Below, one piece after another: positions 2,771 through 33,820 of a stretch of DNA of 33,820 nucleotides. Under the pieces are notes generated by a model. The model saw only the letters and a list, made by a program, of their open reading frames with translations, had not been told where the DNA came from and searched no databases. How positions within the stretch are numbered: the first letter of the stretch is position 1; each line of letters begins with the position of its first letter. A program made the position numbers and the translations under genes. Source of the DNA: a virus. The stretch spans positions 1 to 33,820 of the IMG/VR virus record IMGVR_UViG_3300032397_000043, one strand, 5' to 3'.

Positions 2771-2952
2771 GGCAAGCCCTCTTTCGGGTCGTTGATAATG
2801 ACCTCCCACACGACGAGCATGTTGTGTACGTACTCGTGTAGAAGTAGGATTTTTTCAGGCGAAGCTTTTTCCCAACCTCCGACCTCTAGATAGGTCTGAT
2901 AGAGATCGTGAATGTTTAGCGCTAGAATTTCACTCCGCTCTTTATTGTCCAA
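2749..2952 (-). CDS. Hypothetical small protein before the endolysin
   Basis: 67 residues from a TTG start, with AGGAGG four bases upstream. Its 3' end overlaps the endolysin start by 22 bases. The protein is helical, with a hydrophobic C-terminal half. It contains HEYVH at about residues 39-43, which fits HExxH, but the protein is too short for a known zincin and I do not call it an enzyme. No signal peptide or membrane segment. Family not recognised. Confidence 0.6.
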   Translation of the reverse strand: MDNKERSEILALNIHDLYQTYLEVGGWEKASPEKILLLHEYVHNMLVVWEVIINDPKEGLPCLWVKP

Positions 2953-2960
2953 AATTCCTC

Positions 2961-3275
2961 CTAGAACGGACAGGTTTTAATCTGGCAATTGCAATCGCCT
3001 AGCAGCTGATTTAGTCGATCTCTTATTTCTTGAAGGTCTTTTATAGGTACCGTATAGAGCCCTTCTGCTCGGTCGTACGCCCGCGAGGCCGCGCGTAGCG
3101 TAGATGTGTTGGGCTCTACTTCGTAGGCCATCCTGTACCAGCCTGCGGCTTCGCTGTACTTGCCCTTTAGGAAAAGTTCAGTGGCCTTATCGAAAGTCTT
3201 TTCGGCGCTAGGCGTGTCGGCCGCTACAAGAACACCCGCGGCTAGTACCACTAGAAGTACAGCGATTTTTTTCAT
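2961..3275 (-). CDS. Secreted TPR-like protein
   Basis: 104 residues from the ATG at 3275; the frame is open to 3320 but that would hide a clear signal peptide (MKKIAVLLVVLAAGVLVAA, predicted cut near residue 19). The mature part holds a TPR-like helical pair at about residues 27-68 (ATELFLKGKYSEAAGWYRMA with the Gly/Tyr/Ala spacing of a TPR). The C-terminus has three cysteines (95, 97, 102), suited to disulphides in the periplasm. The gene lies directly downstream of the caspase gene (44 bases between stop and start). TPRs bind other proteins, so a role as partner of a neighbouring envelope protein is possible. Family not otherwise recognised. Confidence 0.65.
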   Translation of the reverse strand: MKKIAVLLVVLAAGVLVAADTPSAEKTFDKATELFLKGKYSEAAGWYRMAYEVEPNTSTLRAASRAYDRAEGLYTVPIKDLQEIRDRLNQLLGDCNCQIKTCPF

Positions 3276-3319
3276 AGTCCCCGCGCGCCGATCAGCGAGC
3301 GCACGCGCGGGGTATACCA

Positions 3320-4150
3320 CTAGAGGTATTTAGGAAACGGGCGATCCAAAATATTTTGATCGCCGCTAGTTTGAGGCTTTTGCTCGAACCCGTAAACACA
3401 TAGAGTGCTACGACATTTCTCCACGATGTTACCCAGAGGCAGATCGGGATACTGAGCGAGCATTTTCAACAGTATCCATGTAAACGCCCCGTTAGGTCGC
3501 CCCGAAAATTCGGCGTCGGACGACGTTCCGCTCGACTCGCAACCAGATAAAAGACACACGCCTGGCATATCGTTTACTAGTGTTCGAAGGGACCGTTTAG
3601 GGGCACCCTCCGGTAGAGAACGTTTCCGCCAAGCCAGATCGGGGGGAGCCTGTAGACGGCGCGCCGAGCCTATTTTCACGCCTCGTGCCCACGATCCGGG
3701 ATTAGGCGAGTCTCGAAGTAAGCCGTCCGAGTGACAGCTATCGGAAATAATTATTACGGTCGACCCCGCTTTTTTTAGATCCAATATCCAACCGATTTTA
3801 TTATCGAGTAACCAGGTGTTCTCGTCGGCCCAGTCGAAACCGTACGGGCAAATCAGCTCATCTAATCTGTCTACCTCTCCACTACCAGAGCGATACGCGT
3901 ACTGTGCACCGTGCGAGGAGTTTGATATAACTACCGTATCGCCGCTATTTGCTTTTACAATGGCCGAGGTGATACGCTCGATCATCCCTTTGGCCGTTGC
4001 TCGTTCGTCAACGCACAGGCGCACGGTACCCATTGGCCAGGTGTATTGATAATGCAACGCACTGGCGATATCGACAGCGTCGTTTACGCACCCGCGAAGC
4101 GGGGAATTTTCGTACTTGTTAATTCCGAAACAAACGGCACTACTCGACAC
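3320..4150 (-). CDS. Caspase-family (peptidase C14) metacaspase-like protease
   Basis: 276 residues starting at a GTG with GCGAGGG five bases upstream. The caspase p20 fold is recognisable: the opening SSSAVCFGINKYEN strand, RGCVNDAVDIAS at about 19-30, catalytic His80 in SNSSHG, RLDELICPYGFDW at 95-107, and catalytic Cys139 in SDSCHS. The p10-like part includes LLSGCESSGTSSDAEF and PNGAFTWILL. Both dyad residues are present, so it should be active; metacaspases normally cut after Arg or Lys. Residues 146-189, between the two halves, contain eleven Arg/Lys, a plausible self-processing linker. No signal peptide or membrane helix, so it should act in the cytoplasm. It overlaps the upstream lipoprotein gene by 11 bases and precedes the secreted TPR gene. 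Target unknown; host-killing, counter-defence or virion processing are all possible. Confidence 0.9.
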   Translation of the reverse strand: MSSSAVCFGINKYENSPLRGCVNDAVDIASALHYQYTWPMGTVRLCVDERATAKGMIERITSAIVKANSGDTVVISNSSHGAQYAYRSGSGEVDRLDELICPYGFDWADENTWLLDNKIGWILDLKKAGSTVIIISDSCHSDGLLRDSPNPGSWARGVKIGSARRLQAPPDLAWRKRSLPEGAPKRSLRTLVNDMPGVCLLSGCESSGTSSDAEFSGRPNGAFTWILLKMLAQYPDLPLGNIVEKCRSTLCVYGFEQKPQTSGDQNILDRPFPKYL

Positions 4151-4568
4151 GATAGCCCTCGCTACGAAGCACTTTTTTCGTGAGCTCGGACGAGGCCTGA
4201 TAGTTTTTTACAGCGTCTCGCGCTGCACCCAAATCTTTGCCCCCGGCTAACAGGCTCCCGTATTCTAGATCTACCATATCGTAAGCGTCCGCTGTGTCGT
4301 CGCAACCGGTCACGATTACGCGCTGCGTATCTAGATCTAGGCTTCTGTCGCGATACGCGGCGTTACAAGTCTCAACAACTTTGGCGTAATCAGGGTTAAT
4401 TACTTGCTCGATATACGCCAAAATCTGCGCCACTGTCTCAAGTCCCGTGACCACGGCCGGGATCGCGGCCGGTATCGCGGCACACGAATAGTTGCCGCCG
4501 GCCATGCACGCAGTAATAATTCCTGTCCAAACCAATCGCGATTTCAAATACTGTAGAATTGTTTCCAA
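4140..4568 (-). CDS. Probable lipoprotein, outer-spanin-like by position
   Basis: 142 residues from a TTG start with GAAGGA four to five bases upstream. The N-terminus has Lys9 and Arg11, a short hydrophobic stretch (LVWTGI) and a lipobox ITAC with Cys21, so a type II signal peptide is likely although its core is short. A Pro/Ala-rich segment (AAIPAAIPAVV) follows, then a mostly helical domain with Cys68 and Cys89. It sits just after a membrane-anchored coiled-coil gene, as in inner/outer spanin pairs, but it is longer than many outer spanins and has no diagnostic family match that I recognise. It overlaps the caspase gene by 11 bases. Confidence 0.55.
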   Translation of the reverse strand: METILQYLKSRLVWTGIITACMAGGNYSCAAIPAAIPAVVTGLETVAQILAYIEQVINPDYAKVVETCNAAYRDRSLDLDTQRVIVTGCDDTADAYDMVDLEYGSLLAGGKDLGAARDAVKNYQASSELTKKVLRSEGYRVE

Positions 4569-4586
4569 TTTTCCTTCTACTTTTGA

Positions 4587-28544: not shown

Positions 28545-28802
28545 CTAGTAGTGTTTCCTCTTGCAGATATCATCGACAAGCGCTTGAATTTGTTTACGCG
28601 CGCCCGTGCGCACAGCCTGCAACGTACCAGGGTTAAACTCAATGTTCAAAAAACTCTGTACTTGGGACAGCGCGGATAGCATATCATCGCGCTCAATCGA
28701 GGCCTCGCGCAACTTCGCGCGCAGCAAAACAACCCTCTCTTGGCACTCGATTAATTCTCTACCGGCCGCCGCCAGCTCTTGTTTTATTTGCACTAATTCC
28801 AT
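28545..28802 (-). CDS. Coiled-coil hypothetical protein between terminase and portal
   Basis: 85 residues, starting in a TAATG overlap with the large terminase stop. Residues 1-50 form a heptad-like coiled coil (LVQIKQELAAAGRELIECQE, then VVLLRAKLREASIERDD). The C-terminal part has a KQIQALVDDICKRKHY helix. No signal or metal motif. It may be a packaging or assembly accessory. Family not recognised. Confidence 0.6.
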   Translation of the reverse strand: MELVQIKQELAAAGRELIECQERVVLLRAKLREASIERDDMLSALSQVQSFLNIEFNPGTLQAVRTGARKQIQALVDDICKRKHY

Positions 28803-30361
28803 TACAACAATCCTCCGCGCCTAAACCCAACGTTAGCCCTAATACGGTCCTCGCTAATAGGATCTTCACAATCCCATTGCCCAGTTTCGCGATCGTACGC
28901 CTCGTTTCGAAAAAAATCTTTCACGGCCTCGTAATCATACACCATAGGCAACGTGTCCGCAAGGCGAAAGCAATCAGCAAAAGCGTCAACTGCATCATCA
29001 TGTTGCGAGGACTCTTGAGGAGGAAAAACCTCGATTTCGTTGAAAAAATCGTTCGTCCACTCCCCGCGCAAGTACCAGATTCTCCTATTATAAGCGTAAA
29101 CCGCGGCCGGCCTCGCATAAAACTCTTTATCTCGTGAGCGAAGCTGCCCGATCACGCGACCGAGCCCTTTCAAGTCCCGCTTTTTTCGATCGAGCTGATC
29201 AATACCCGCTTGCCCTGGATCTTGAGGTAGGCCAATAATGCAACCCGGCCCGTCGCTAATCGCCGTAGCGCGAATTAGTGCGTCCACGGCGCCAGGCGTG
29301 TCTCGACACGAAACCATATCTAGAACTACCATATCCCGATTCCGGAACACGCCCAGCTTTATCCCACGCGACCAGTCCCCGTCCTTCGTAGTCGCCACAA
29401 AATCAGGAGGCCTAGATACCCCCGGTACCAGACAACCCTTGACCGGGGTCGCGGCCAAATCCCAACATCGCACGCACTTCACTAAATCTCTACCTAGATC
29501 TGGTTGCCTCTTCAACCGGCGCGTGATCGAATCGGGAGCCAGCTCTCGAAACCAACCCCGCTGAAAGAAGTCACCCTGCGAAGGCCTCGCCGACCAGTCA
29601 CCTTTGCCTAGGCGCGCGTACTCGTGAGGTAACAACGTTTGCAAGCGCGCCTTATAGCCCGGATCTTTTTGCAACAAAATCTTATTATCCGATAGTCTAG
29701 ATCGAATAAACGTCAACGACCGGGGGGGCGCATCGGGGCTATGAGGCAGTTGATCAGGCCTGTCCGACCAAACCAACTCATCGCCCACACGCACAAACCA
29801 GCGCAACACCCCGTCGCGCTCTGGTATCGGGTATTTACCTTCGCTATCTAACCACCAGGCAATGAGTTTTTTCACAAAACTATCAGGGTCGGGATTTACC
29901 GTCAATATCGTAAAAGGCTCTAAGCCAGCTGGCGCATTACGATTACGAGATTGCAAATACCAAAACTGCGACTCGGTAAAATGGGTCGCTTCATCAAACG
30001 CTATACCGGCGTATTGTTTGCCCTGATGTGCATACTTATCTTGCTCATAATGCAAGTGCCGAAACTCGATAAGGGACCGATCTAGCCTCCACTCCCTAAC
30101 GGGCGACTCGCGCGCCGTAAAACCCGGTATCGCGCGAAAAACCTCTTGTGCCTCTTCCCACAACGAGCCCGCCCCGTGCAACTCTGGACTTGTGCGACGA
30201 AAAATAACCGCCTGAAACCCCTCATACAGCAAAGCTAAATTAGCAAAATGTTGAACAATAAACCGTGACTTGCCGCCGCCCGCCTCGCCCCCAAACACGA
30301 TTATATTCGCCCTAGACTCGGCCGCGCGCCGTTGAGGGCCAGGCTGAAACGCTAGGGTCAC
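28802..30361 (-). CDS. Terminase large subunit
   Basis: 519 residues, GTG start overlapping the small subunit stop as GTGA. Walker A is GGEAGGGKS at 24-32; Walker B is in YAGIAFDEATHF at about 118-128; the QSRNRNAP and TVNPDPDSF segments are the coupling motif region. The C-terminal RNase H-like nuclease has CVRCWDLAATP at about 295-305 and HDDAVDAFADCF at about 460-470. It is of the TIGR01630/Terminase_6C type, a powerful ATP-driven packaging motor. It is not the classic Mu gp28 sequence type, so the packaging gene may have a separate origin from the Mu-like head genes. Confidence 0.93.
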   Translation of the reverse strand: MTLAFQPGPQRRAAESRANIIVFGGEAGGGKSRFIVQHFANLALLYEGFQAVIFRRTSPELHGAGSLWEEAQEVFRAIPGFTARESPVREWRLDRSLIEFRHLHYEQDKYAHQGKQYAGIAFDEATHFTESQFWYLQSRNRNAPAGLEPFTILTVNPDPDSFVKKLIAWWLDSEGKYPIPERDGVLRWFVRVGDELVWSDRPDQLPHSPDAPPRSLTFIRSRLSDNKILLQKDPGYKARLQTLLPHEYARLGKGDWSARPSQGDFFQRGWFRELAPDSITRRLKRQPDLGRDLVKCVRCWDLAATPVKGCLVPGVSRPPDFVATTKDGDWSRGIKLGVFRNRDMVVLDMVSCRDTPGAVDALIRATAISDGPGCIIGLPQDPGQAGIDQLDRKKRDLKGLGRVIGQLRSRDKEFYARPAAVYAYNRRIWYLRGEWTNDFFNEIEVFPPQESSQHDDAVDAFADCFRLADTLPMVYDYEAVKDFFRNEAYDRETGQWDCEDPISEDRIRANVGFRRGGLL

Positions 30362-30756
30362 GCGGGCTCTTCCCCGGGGCCGAGAACCTTTGCCCCTTTC
30401 AAAATCGCACGATCCATCTCTTCAGGCGTGCGCACGTACAGCACGAGACCCTTTGGCGCATCTGGATTACTGTCACTAACCGCAACGGGAGCCTCGACAG
30501 GAGGCCGACCGAACGCGCTAATCACCATGAACTCGACGGCCTTCATGTCCCCGGCCTGCGCCAGCGATGCCATTTGTCGGAGTATGGCCATGAGCCGGGT
30601 TTGTTTATCCCCGGCCACGTCCACTTTCTCGCGCAGCACCTCTTGCGCGGCCACGCGCAAAAACGTGAAGCTGCCTACCCCCGCACCACGATTGTTGCGA
30701 TTCGGATCGTACCCTTTTTGAAATCCAGGTTTTCGCTTGACAACGGAATTTTCCAT
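30358..30756 (-). CDS. Candidate terminase small subunit (DUF5681-like N-terminus)
   Basis: 132 residues. The N-terminal GFQKGYDPNRNNRGAG matches the DUF5681 start that many phage small-terminase-like proteins have; the middle is helical (LRVAAQEVLREKVDVAGDK, LRQMASLAQAGDMKAVEFM), and the C-terminus has PKGLVLYVRTPEEMD. It lies directly before the large subunit and overlaps it. There is no SD; an extended -10 promoter ends 11 bases before its ATG, so its leader is very short. Confidence 0.7.
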   Translation of the reverse strand: MENSVVKRKPGFQKGYDPNRNNRGAGVGSFTFLRVAAQEVLREKVDVAGDKQTRLMAILRQMASLAQAGDMKAVEFMVISAFGRPPVEAPVAVSDSNPDAPKGLVLYVRTPEEMDRAILKGAKVLGPGEEPA

Positions 30757-30800: not shown

Positions 30801-30974
30801 TTACCAAACTTGACTGACTTTTCGAGGGCGAGGCGTGCGCACGGGCTGGGTCTGGGGCGCGTAAAAGAGCTGCACAAGGCGCACGGCCTGGCCGTGCTCA
30901 CGATAAGCGGCCTCGATCTCGCGCTTGGTCGTGTTACCGGTCTCAGTCAACACTCGAATAAGTTTTTGTTCCAT
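30801..30974 (-). CDS. Small HTH-like protein (unannotated)
   Basis: 57 residues from the ATG at 30974, with no obvious RBS. The first 34 residues read as a helix-turn-helix-like domain (LIRVLTETGNTTKREIEAAY, then REHGQAVRLVQLF), followed by a Pro/Arg-rich tail (APQTQPVRTPRPRKVSQVW). It could be a DNA-binding regulator or a packaging accessory; it lies next to the palindrome and the iteron region. Confidence is limited by size and missing RBS, but the codon pattern and composition look coding. Confidence 0.5.
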   Translation of the reverse strand: MEQKLIRVLTETGNTTKREIEAAYREHGQAVRLVQLFYAPQTQPVRTPRPRKVSQVW

Positions 30975-31051
30975 ACTAAGTTAATCGGGTGCTCACACGA
31001 AAACCTTTAGTAGTAAAATTTCTTTATTTTAGGAAAATTACAGTAGAAATA

Positions 31052-31113
31052 GGTTGCCTACCAAAAAACGTAACAATTTCAACCAAATAGGCAACTAGGC
31101 AACCTAGGCAACC
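31052..31113. repeat. Left iteron cluster
   Basis: One inverted copy GGTTGCCTA at 31052-31060, then TAGGCAAC at 31088-31095 (one base short) and TAGGCAACC at 31096-31104 and 31105-31113. The inverted and direct copies are separated by 27 bases. Confidence 0.85.
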
Positions 31114-31158
31114 AATTCCCTATTAAACCCTGTGAAATTTAAAATTTTGCCATGACCA

Positions 31159-31205
31159 GCTACGATACACATTAGATCACATTATACTACAATGTAAGTC
31201 GTAGC
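31159..31205. repeat. Long hairpin between iteron clusters
   Basis: 31159-31173 pairs with 31191-31205: GCTACGA with TCGTAGC perfectly, then ACATT with AATGT after one wobble and two mismatches; the loop is 17 bases. Neither strand has a following T-run, so a terminator is unlikely. Confidence 0.6.
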
Positions 31206-31249
31206 GGGTCGTTCGGAATTTCTCTGCTTAATACAAACTCTTGGGAAAA

Positions 31250-31331
31250 GGTCGCCTAGGTCGCCTAGGTCGCCTACTTGGTTGTAATTATTATGTTTTT
31301 TAGGTAGGCAACCTAGGCAACCTAGGCAACC
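31250..31331. repeat. Right iteron cluster (two opposed triplets)
   Basis: Three tandem GGTCGCCTA (31250-31276) face three tandem TAGGCAACC (31305-31331). The two arrays are complementary with one mismatch per unit, so they can also fold into a stem of about 28 bases. The unit change (GTCGC versus GTTGC) is fixed in all three copies of the first array. Confidence 0.85.
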
Positions 31332-31500
31332 TGTAATTTTCCTGAAATAAGGAATTTTATAGGTTCTAGTTTTCAAGGCGTCGGTTGTGCCACGAAATAG
31401 GAAAAACGTAGCATAACTTTTTGTGATGACTGTCCCTGAACTAAGACACTCTTGCCCTAGTAGCCGGTCGGCGCCTTTCCCGAAAGACCGCGTACGTTGT

Positions 31501-33582
31501 CTATAGCGGTTGCGTAGCTTTGGGGTTTTTATAGGCGCGAATTTGCGTGCCTGCTATGGATCGTTTACCGATTTTACGCCAATTCAGCGCCCGTAGTGCG
31601 GCCGATACGCGCATTTGCAGCCCGCGATCTTGCACAGGCATGCCTAAAAGATAGACAATTTGGCTAGGAGAGGCCCATTGCAAGACTCCGTCTACGATTT
31701 GGCTACTCTCTATGCCTGCTATTGCGTTGGGGGATACGGGCTGCGCTAGGCGCCTTGCGAGCATCTCTTCTATGGTATCCGACTCTCTATGATCTTCTTG
31801 GATTTCTCGCGCAATGACCTCTTCCTCGTCAGTTAGGTACCACATCTCCCCGCGGCGATAACGTGCTACGGCCTCGGACCACCATTGCGCCCGCACCTGT
31901 TCGCATTCCTCTATTACCTCGGCCGAGATCCGGGTATGGATTTCGATCGGCCAAAAGCGCCGCCCTCCCGTGGCGTCGTGTAAGAATTCCTGTTCGTTGC
32001 TAGATCCTGCGAACACGCATTTACGGGGGTGTTGTTCGTCGATGCGCGCGTAGGGAGCTCTGTACGAGTCGCTGCGTACGGTGATGTAGGCTTTGATGGC
32101 GCTGATTTCGCGCGCGCCAAACCACGACATGTCCGGATCTTCGACGATAACCGGCCCTTGCAGCGCGATCAGTGAATCTTTATCCCCGCTTTTAGGTAAG
32201 CCTTCACGGTGGTAGATCGGGTCCGGAACGATCGCACTTAAAAATTTACTTTTACGCAAACCTTGGTCACCGATCAACACCAGCATGTAGTCGGCCTGGC
32301 AGCCAGGCTCGTAGGTGCGGGCTACTGCGGATATTAGCCATTTACGAAAAAACACCCTATTTAGGGGAGTTTCGTTGGCACCGCACAGATCGATCATTAC
32401 TCGATCTAGCCTCTCAACGCCGTCCCATACTAGGGCGCTTAACCAACGCTCGAACGAGTCGAAGCTGTTTTTAGCACCTTGAGCCGCGACCTCGTGATAA
32501 ACTTGATCTGGCGACGCTGCGATTTGCGGTGCGAGCCTTGAGAGCCAATCTACCACGTCGTTATTGTCGTGTTCATGCCACGTGCGCGGGTAGGTCGGGT
32601 CTTCTTCGCGTTCCCATGGGGGCGGCGCATTGAGTTTTATTTCGCGGCGGCGCTCATCTAGCGCAAATAGATTTTGCGTTTCGGGGTGGTGGCGGATCGC
32701 TGCTTGAACGTTGGCGTAGCACGTTTTTACGCCGGTGCCCGTTTCGTTCCATATTAGGTATCGATGCCAATCTTGTTCTTGATGCAGCGGATTTTCTTGG
32801 CCTTGCTCTAGCGCTCGATCCACGGTGCGCTCAGCTTCGGTGCTAGGTAGAATCGAATCGGCCTCGACACAAGCTTTGAGCAAGGCCTTCCGGCAACGCT
32901 CAAGGCCGAGGATATGCGCGCGGCGGCCAATTGCCCATGCTTCCTTATTCAATGTGGCGTTGCGCTCGCCCAACTCCGCTTTTTTGATGCGTTTACAGGC
33001 CAATTCTAGGCGTTTTTCGGCGCTTTCTTGGCGTTTAGAGTTTAGGTCGGTTTCGGGCTTAGTTTGGGTGGCGCGCCAGTCGAACGGTTTTCCATGTGCG
33101 GCGTGACCCGTGCTTGCTACGGGCGCGAACGGTTGATAGTAGAATCGTGACGGATTTCTACATTTGGCGTCGGGCGCGCCGGCAGGCTTCAACAGATCGG
33201 CTAGGTGTTGCCAAACCCTGGCCCAATCGTCGCGTGGTACCGGTTCGGATAGTTGGATAGCGACGCGCAGCTTTAGTTTTTCCGGCGTACTAGAATAGGT
33301 ATCGGCACAACACCAAGCGTACCCTTGCAGTATTTCCCCTAGTTTTATAGGGTCTGGATTTTCATCGAAATCGAAGACCGCGATCGTTATCGCTTCGACG
33401 CTCTGGTCGTTACGTTCCGGTTTCGTGAACGTGGCCGGTATCCAACCAGGGAGTTGATCCTTTAATAGAGGAGTGGCCTGAACGTGCGTAAACCACGCTG
33501 CGAACTCGGACCAGCTCGGAAAGTGGGCCGAGGTGGGGTTTTTATCTTTTTGATTAGTGACGAGGGTGATATTTATGGGCAA
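31501..33582 (-). CDS. Primase-polymerase / VapE-type SF3-like helicase
   Basis: 693 residues from a TTG at 33582, four bases after AGGAGG; the frame is open to 33663 but has no RBS there. The N-terminal primase-polymerase region has AVFDFDE (Asp71, Asp73, catalytic metal ligands), STPEKLKLRVAIQL at about 98-111 and NPSRFYYQP at about 143-151. The C-terminal virulence-associated E domain has FERWLSALVWDGVERLD, a P-loop GDQGLRKSK near residues 437-445, and RYRRGEMWYLTDEEE near the end. It should open the origin, unwind DNA and prime synthesis. It lies next to the iteron region. Confidence 0.9.
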   Translation of the reverse strand: MPINITLVTNQKDKNPTSAHFPSWSEFAAWFTHVQATPLLKDQLPGWIPATFTKPERNDQSVEAITIAVFDFDENPDPIKLGEILQGYAWCCADTYSSTPEKLKLRVAIQLSEPVPRDDWARVWQHLADLLKPAGAPDAKCRNPSRFYYQPFAPVASTGHAAHGKPFDWRATQTKPETDLNSKRQESAEKRLELACKRIKKAELGERNATLNKEAWAIGRRAHILGLERCRKALLKACVEADSILPSTEAERTVDRALEQGQENPLHQEQDWHRYLIWNETGTGVKTCYANVQAAIRHHPETQNLFALDERRREIKLNAPPPWEREEDPTYPRTWHEHDNNDVVDWLSRLAPQIAASPDQVYHEVAAQGAKNSFDSFERWLSALVWDGVERLDRVMIDLCGANETPLNRVFFRKWLISAVARTYEPGCQADYMLVLIGDQGLRKSKFLSAIVPDPIYHREGLPKSGDKDSLIALQGPVIVEDPDMSWFGAREISAIKAYITVRSDSYRAPYARIDEQHPRKCVFAGSSNEQEFLHDATGGRRFWPIEIHTRISAEVIEECEQVRAQWWSEAVARYRRGEMWYLTDEEEVIAREIQEDHRESDTIEEMLARRLAQPVSPNAIAGIESSQIVDGVLQWASPSQIVYLLGMPVQDRGLQMRVSAALRALNWRKIGKRSIAGTQIRAYKNPKATQPL

Positions 33583-33682: not shown

Positions 33683-33820
33683 ATGAAACTACTAGAATTA
33701 TATATTAGGCAGATTAGTCGTTGTGGAAGTAGCGCCGGGGAGTTTTTGTGTTTAGTGAGGGCGAATCTCCGGGGGGCGAAGCGCCGGGGGGCGAATCTCC
33801 GGGGGGCGGATATCCGCGGT
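33683..33820 (+). CDS. Pentapeptide-repeat protein, 3' end beyond window
   Basis: The first 46 codons of an open frame, ATG after GAGGAGG. After a helical start (KLLELYIRQISRCG) the sequence turns into the A(N/D)LxG pentapeptide repeat: RANLRG, AKRRG, ANLRG, ADIRG. The DNA shows 15-bp tandem units (33761-33820). Pentapeptide proteins form right-handed beta-helices; some mimic DNA and protect or inhibit gyrase. It diverges from the primase gene and continues past the window, so full length and function are unknown. Confidence 0.75.
   Translation, partial: MKLLELYIRQISRCGSSAGEFLCLVRANLRGAKRRGANLRGADIRG

Follow-up and report, generated by a model that had tools for sequence, protein, structure and literature searches.

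Known and probable origins situated downstream of helicase genes

Origins of PICIs are located immediately 3' of the initiator gene and always possess two iteron sets, with rep-ori driving plasmid replication (PMC6092414). Recognition of the iterons by SaPI Rep involves the C-terminal domain of the protein, which apparently acts as two hexamers, while the binding site of SCCmec Cch2 is situated downstream of the gene encoding it (PMC7581432). In P4, alpha is directly followed by crr, a region annotated as required in cis that contains ten type 1 iterons. Streptococcus thermophilus phage Sfi21 has an annotated 302-bp origin (phage inhibitory sequence) that directly follows a D5-type helicase gene and contains AGTAACT units mirrored on either side of an AT-rich tract; the element is described as able to block phages and as an independent origin of replication (PMC6356513). 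The origin of pRN1 is a stem-loop 3' of its PrimPol-helicase gene (PMC4234260).

The DNA examined here (the window) is the 33,820 bases of IMG/VR record IMGVR_UViG_3300032397_000043, a single record that is a fragment. Judging from sequence comparison, the region 31016..31358 of the window is very probably the replication origin of a tailed phage (probability approximately 0.88), of the kind in which an initiator gene is followed by its own iteron origin. Its array is an ordinary, well-formed example of an origin type that is already known.

Genomic setting and the proposed initiator

The window was identified as tailed-phage DNA in which the head module is Mu-like (with genes for a large terminase, a portal, a Mu F-like protein and a protease) and baseplate, tail-fibre, endolysin and lysis genes are also present; PICIs, in contrast, are satellites lacking full virion genes. 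Nearly all of its genes run leftward, and a phage DNA similarity search with the window gave no match. The proposed initiator gene (31501..33582, - strand) probably encodes a PrimPol, a VapE (PriRep1-type) helicase and a winged helix. Its likely start is a TTG at position 33582 after AGGAGG, with the longest ORF reaching 33663 (up to 720 codons). Approximately 525 bp of noncoding DNA, within which the array lies, extends from the stop of this gene to a 57-aa ORF (30801..30974, - strand) near position 30974. This ORF sits between the array and the small-terminase-like gene (30358-30756), itself followed by the large terminase gene (28802-30361), and is not clearly part of the origin. No gene separates the end of the VapE gene (31501) from the end of the inverted repeat described below (31358). 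The first-pass annotation had placed a PrimPol/VapE gene immediately upstream of the array; the gene does adjoin it, but is encoded on the - strand, with its end at 31501, which places the array on its downstream (3') side.

The window protein was found to match the Pfam VapE family (5.7e-67), and a profile search identified PDB 7pds ('The structure of PriRep1 with dsDNA', molecule title 'Similar to D. nodosus vapE') with an E-value of 3e-110. An AlphaFold model of the protein (mean pLDDT 76) matched 7pds with a Z-score of 33.3 over 401 residues (model residues 271-692), with the next matches being the C-terminal region of NrS-1 (Z 15.2), the SaPI5 primase-helicase (13.6; structures 7om0/7ola, Z about 13.5) and other viral superfamily 3 helicases. 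The last 70 residues are predicted to be arranged as strand-helix-helix-helix-strand-strand, the order of a winged helix, at a pLDDT of about 80. The N-terminal region possesses a D-x-D motif (FDFDEN), a weak match to a primase family and moderate model confidence, and is likely to be a PrimPol domain. No close relatives of this protein were found in viral_contigs by single-sequence search.

An iteron array within a region-wide inverted repeat

Two iteron clusters were identified in the noncoding region (31052-31113 and 31250-31331). The left cluster consists of a single outer GGTTGCCTA (31052..31060, + strand) and three inner TAGGCAAC(C) units (31088..31113, - strand; starts at 31088 (8 bp), 31096 and 31105), and the right cluster of three inner GGTCGCCTA units with a C at the fourth base (31250..31276, + strand; starts at 31250, 31259 and 31268) and three outer TAGGCAACC units (31305..31331, - strand; starts at 31305, 31314 and 31323). 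Read on the primase strand, the order of the units is <<<...>>>......<<<...>, so that outer and inner clusters are mirrored about the centre, although with unequal copy number between the arms (outer clusters 1 vs 3). Ten 9-bp units had been described previously, and all ten are in place and beyond chance expectation, although nine are exact and one is of 8 bp. Six copies of one word were observed, whereas no 9-mer exceeded three copies when 30976-31500 was dinucleotide-shuffled 1000 times, and the nine exact units have no further occurrence within the 33.8-kb record.

These units lie between the copies of a perfect 13-bp inverted repeat, AGGAAAATTACAG (left copy 31031..31043, + strand; right copy 31331..31343, - strand), with a further perfect 13-bp inverted pair at 31050-31062/31303-31315; 2 of 1000 shuffles of the same interval contained a perfect inverted repeat of this length or longer. 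The 13-bp pair reported by the first-pass annotation is thus present, but the true inverted repeat is the whole of 31016-31358, and the 13-bp repeat is not a terminus, since similarity between the arms continues past both of its sides. This imperfect region-wide inverted repeat of 343 bases matches its own reverse complement at 67% over its full length (E 1.9e-26), with the arms aligning in the spacers (AAAAAACGTAACAATTTCAACCAA vs AAAAAACATAATAATTACAACCAA) as well as in the repeats. It can fold as a single giant hairpin, and its single-strand fold is one long hairpin of -81 kcal/mol (z -12.4).

At the centre of the dyad, an imperfect hairpin (31154..31210) is 80% complementary with a 17-nt loop. 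The hairpin previously noted between the clusters is therefore real, though modest (fold z -3.5), and could serve as a melting or priming site. An AT-rich stretch had also been placed between the clusters. The gap there is mildly AT-rich (GC 0.44 vs 0.53 in the record), but the 40-mers richest in AT lie outside the left cluster, in the most AT-rich intergenic stretch (31000..31055, 82.5% AT in 40-mers), which is a possible unwinding element. No Rfam match was found for the region. The GC skew of the record turns near 31.5-32.5 kb, while gene-wise skew and GC3 skew across the record gave no informative origin signal.

Comparison with described systems

The closest resemblance is to the pri-rep-ori arrangement of SaPIs and PICIs. 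As in these elements, the origin candidate lies immediately 3' of the primase-helicase gene and has two iteron sets around a central region, and the modelled helicase appears to be of the same fold (PriRep1 7pds, Z 33), with a C-terminal winged helix predicted from the order of strands and helices as in their initiators. Origins of this type have an AT-rich region between the iteron sets, whereas the centre of the window region is only mildly AT-rich; the arms of the latter, moreover, form one region-wide inverted repeat. In P4, as in the window, iterons of both orientations directly follow the primase-helicase gene on its 3' side, those of P4 being 8-bp units. However, P4 carries an ori separate from crr, which is itself a direct duplication of 120 bp. 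Domain matches of the window protein were VapE-like only, whereas those of alpha were Toprim, D5_N, DUF5906 and Pox_D5; alpha thus joins a Toprim primase to a helicase of the D5 type, and the window protein, a probable PrimPol-VapE, is not of the P4 type.

With Sfi21 the window shares a noncoding array of mirrored units immediately 3' of the helicase gene, although Sfi21 differs in its D5-type helicase, separate primase gene, strong AT-rich core and different word. ORF904 of pRN1 combines PrimPol, helicase and winged-helix domains, and replication of pRN1 requires a stem-loop located 3' of the ORF904 gene (PMC4234260). That stem-loop is of 100 bp and has no iterons, whereas the window has iterons and a 343-bp dyad; stem-loop potential and position are found in both, and a PrimPol N-terminus in the window protein is moderately supported. 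Cch2 of SCCmec also has repeats just downstream of its own helicase gene, to which it binds via its C-terminal domain (PMC7581432), but these are three short AAGTG direct repeats and its primase is a separate protein of the polymerase type.

Iteron arrays 3' of VapE genes in distant relatives

Seven distant phage relatives were examined first and aligned, and the alignment brought in a further 160 loci, which were selected by protein similarity alone. The set of seven suggested that iterons are frequent in the gap 3' of VapE. Words identified at this position include TTACAACCGA in Dulem virus 37, GGTCACCCC in Marinobacter phage PS3, GTATCCA in Enterococcus phiFL4A, GTCAACA in Paenibacillus Pd_22F and TAGGCAACC in Streptococcus Javan405.

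For each locus, copies of the commonest 8-mer within 450 nt 3' of VapE were counted blind, and four or more were scored as an array. An array was found in 104 of 162 distant relatives, viruses and prophages (helicases 28-41% identical), with units in both orientations in 98, and the commonest 8-mer had a mean of 5.3 copies vs 1.9 in shuffles. Flanking control segments rarely contained an array (1/155, 4/141, 1/148 and 0/140), as was the case for the last 450 nt of the VapE gene itself (7/166). As the loci are not all independent, they were clustered by helicase, with arrays present in 88 of 135 clusters at 90% identity and 18 of 28 at 60%. This linkage between array and VapE, with controls near zero, supports the proposal of the first-pass annotation that the region is a probable origin, as do P4 crr, the Sfi21 ori, the PICI/SaPI oris and the SCCmec Cch2 site, all of them annotated or tested anchors that occupy the same position.

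Relatives that keep the primase without repeats, which according to the same annotation would refute an origin here, were looked for. Under a relaxed test 121 of 162 loci were positive and 41 were not, with 38 of the latter also lacking four exact copies. Approximately 14 of these 38 nevertheless have an array that overlaps the stop codon or lies elsewhere in the locus, in many cases 0.6-3.4 kb further downstream, while in approximately 24 no clear array was found anywhere in the locus. In L023, L028, L031, L033, L038, L156 and L173, which are mostly alphaproteobacterial VapE loci, an array with words of the same theme is situated 1.7-3.4 kb downstream of the helicase gene.

It might be argued that such repeats are an operator or silencing site, at which a repressor or helicase controls the flanking genes instead of starting replication. 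Iteron binding by initiators frequently has a regulatory role too, and weak promoter-like sites occur on the + strand of the window, but these matches are at the shuffled (chance) level. Furthermore, the array tracks the product of a gene that it follows on the 3' side, replication of P4 is annotated as depending on crr in cis, and the element of Sfi21 functions as an origin. This explanation is considered very unlikely.

The same survey bears on whether the small terminase encoded nearby instead binds the repeats as a cos or pac site, at which packaging would start. The small-terminase-like and large terminase genes do come next, and cos/pac sites frequently adjoin terS. However, neither a VapE match nor a tandem copy of the unit was found across the records (43 and 30 kb) of the closest terminase relatives, L003 and L004 (large terminase 69% identical), while arrays follow VapE in L009, L010 and L013, loci without an adjacent terminase. 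We regard a packaging role as highly improbable.

Records L003 (IMGVR_UViG_3300027740_000046) and L004 were also found to carry a phage-borne compact type V CRISPR locus. In L003, this consists of a gene (2848-4344) whose 498-aa product resembles Cas12f/Cas12u1 (PADLOC E 8e-41) and an array (4317-4569) in which three spacers separate four identical repeats of 36 nt, and the same is present in L004. Gene and array are directly upstream of the small terminase gene, the slot held by the iteron array in the window.

Recurrence of the mirrored layout

Self-complementarity across the region exceeded that of shuffles in 90 of 105 array-bearing loci. As the iterons themselves add to this measure, they were masked, after which 39 of 105 loci were still beyond all shuffles, the window among them. 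The window scored 122 against a shuffle maximum of 21, ranking third among the 105. A mirror test on the orientation of units alone was not significant per locus (3 of 103 loci at p<=0.05; mean 0.55 vs 0.47), and the dyad claim thus relies on sequence self-complementarity.

This recurrence is difficult to reconcile with a MITE-like mobile element or with the remnant of an insertion bounded by terminal inverted repeats, of which the long imperfect inverted repeat with its perfect 13-bp stretches is reminiscent. The mirror layout recurs at the same site in unrelated phages with different sequence, the arms are similar beyond the 13-bp repeat on both sides, and the element is single-copy in the record, with no further copies with target duplications found, rendering this origin for the repeats extremely improbable. 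A protelomerase hairpin-telomere site (N15-like), which needs a perfect palindrome at its centre, was rejected on the 80% complementarity and 17-nt loop observed there.

Iteron words and the one-base difference

Words across loci were found to share a theme (information 4.46 bits vs 1.6 in the null), strongest at the final A-C-A/C, and distance between words correlated with distance between helicases (r 0.30, p 0.001). No covariation of the C-terminal domain with the words was detected beyond that of the helicase core (partial r -0.004). The word of P4, GGTGAACA, fits the family motif (p about 0.02), with the window's own word being a weak fit (p about 0.12).

The right inner cluster has the GGTCGCCTA form in all three copies, whereas its left mirror partner has the GGTTGCCTA form. 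The first-pass annotation had offered two explanations for this systematic one-base difference, neither of which was borne out. Regarding two binding specificities (for the TAGGCAACC and TAGGCGACC forms), the changed base is neutral under the family motif: a PWM built from other loci scores the two forms at 3.28 vs 3.20, and the C-for-T change sits at a position of low constraint. Regarding a stem with regular mismatches, the C/T difference gives G.T wobbles on the - (primase) strand and the 29-bp stem stays unbroken, with an energy of -28.2 kcal/mol vs -21.8 kcal/mol on the + strand. One change common to three tandem copies is as would be expected from amplification of a single changed unit.

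A search of viral_contigs for tandem GGTTGCCTA returned two unrelated, chance-like loci. On one unrelated viral contig (L007:1370-1465), tandem TTAGGTTGCCTAGG-like repeats occur in a long noncoding stretch rich in TAGTTA/CTAGC, in a record without a VapE match.

Proposed mechanism and wider occurrence

If the region 31016-31358 is the origin, the C-terminal winged helix of the adjacent helicase would bind the TAGGCRACC units, and the mirrored sub-clusters, two on each side of the centre, would seat two assemblies facing in opposite directions. These may load as helicase hexamers and open the central or flanking AT-rich DNA, possibly aided by extrusion of the hairpin, with the primase domain then starting two divergent forks.

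The initiator-iteron layout, once called unique to PICIs, is suggested by these sequence comparisons to be common in VapE phages. It is tentatively proposed that VapE tailed phages and prophages share one origin design, comprising a common 8-bp theme (roughly nKKnnACM) and a region-wide mirror that could be extruded as a giant hairpin, in which the mirror may be under selection while the letters drift with the helicase. If true, a single mechanism would unite the iteron origins (P4, PICI) with the stem-loop origins (pRN1), and the statement that no other known replicon has the PICI layout would be contradicted. No description of VapE-phage origins as a class was found in the literature searched, which mostly excluded subscription journals; the linkage of array and VapE across phages and the recurrent giant dyad thus appear to be undescribed as a class, with priority unproven.

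The approximately 100 helicase-array pairs, in which words differ while position and layout are the same, provide a data set for origin recognition by self-loading phage helicases, as well as a simple rule for locating origins in uncultured phages, namely to search the DNA 3' of VapE. Phage blocking by high-copy origin fragments is already known, for example with that of Sfi21, and predicted origins could likewise be tried as phage blockers in dairy strains and laboratory strains.

Upstream of the primase gene, imperfect tandem repeats of approximately 15 bp (GGGGGGCGAATCTCC-like) were identified at the end of the record (33756-33820), and these are probably the reason that the assembly stops there.
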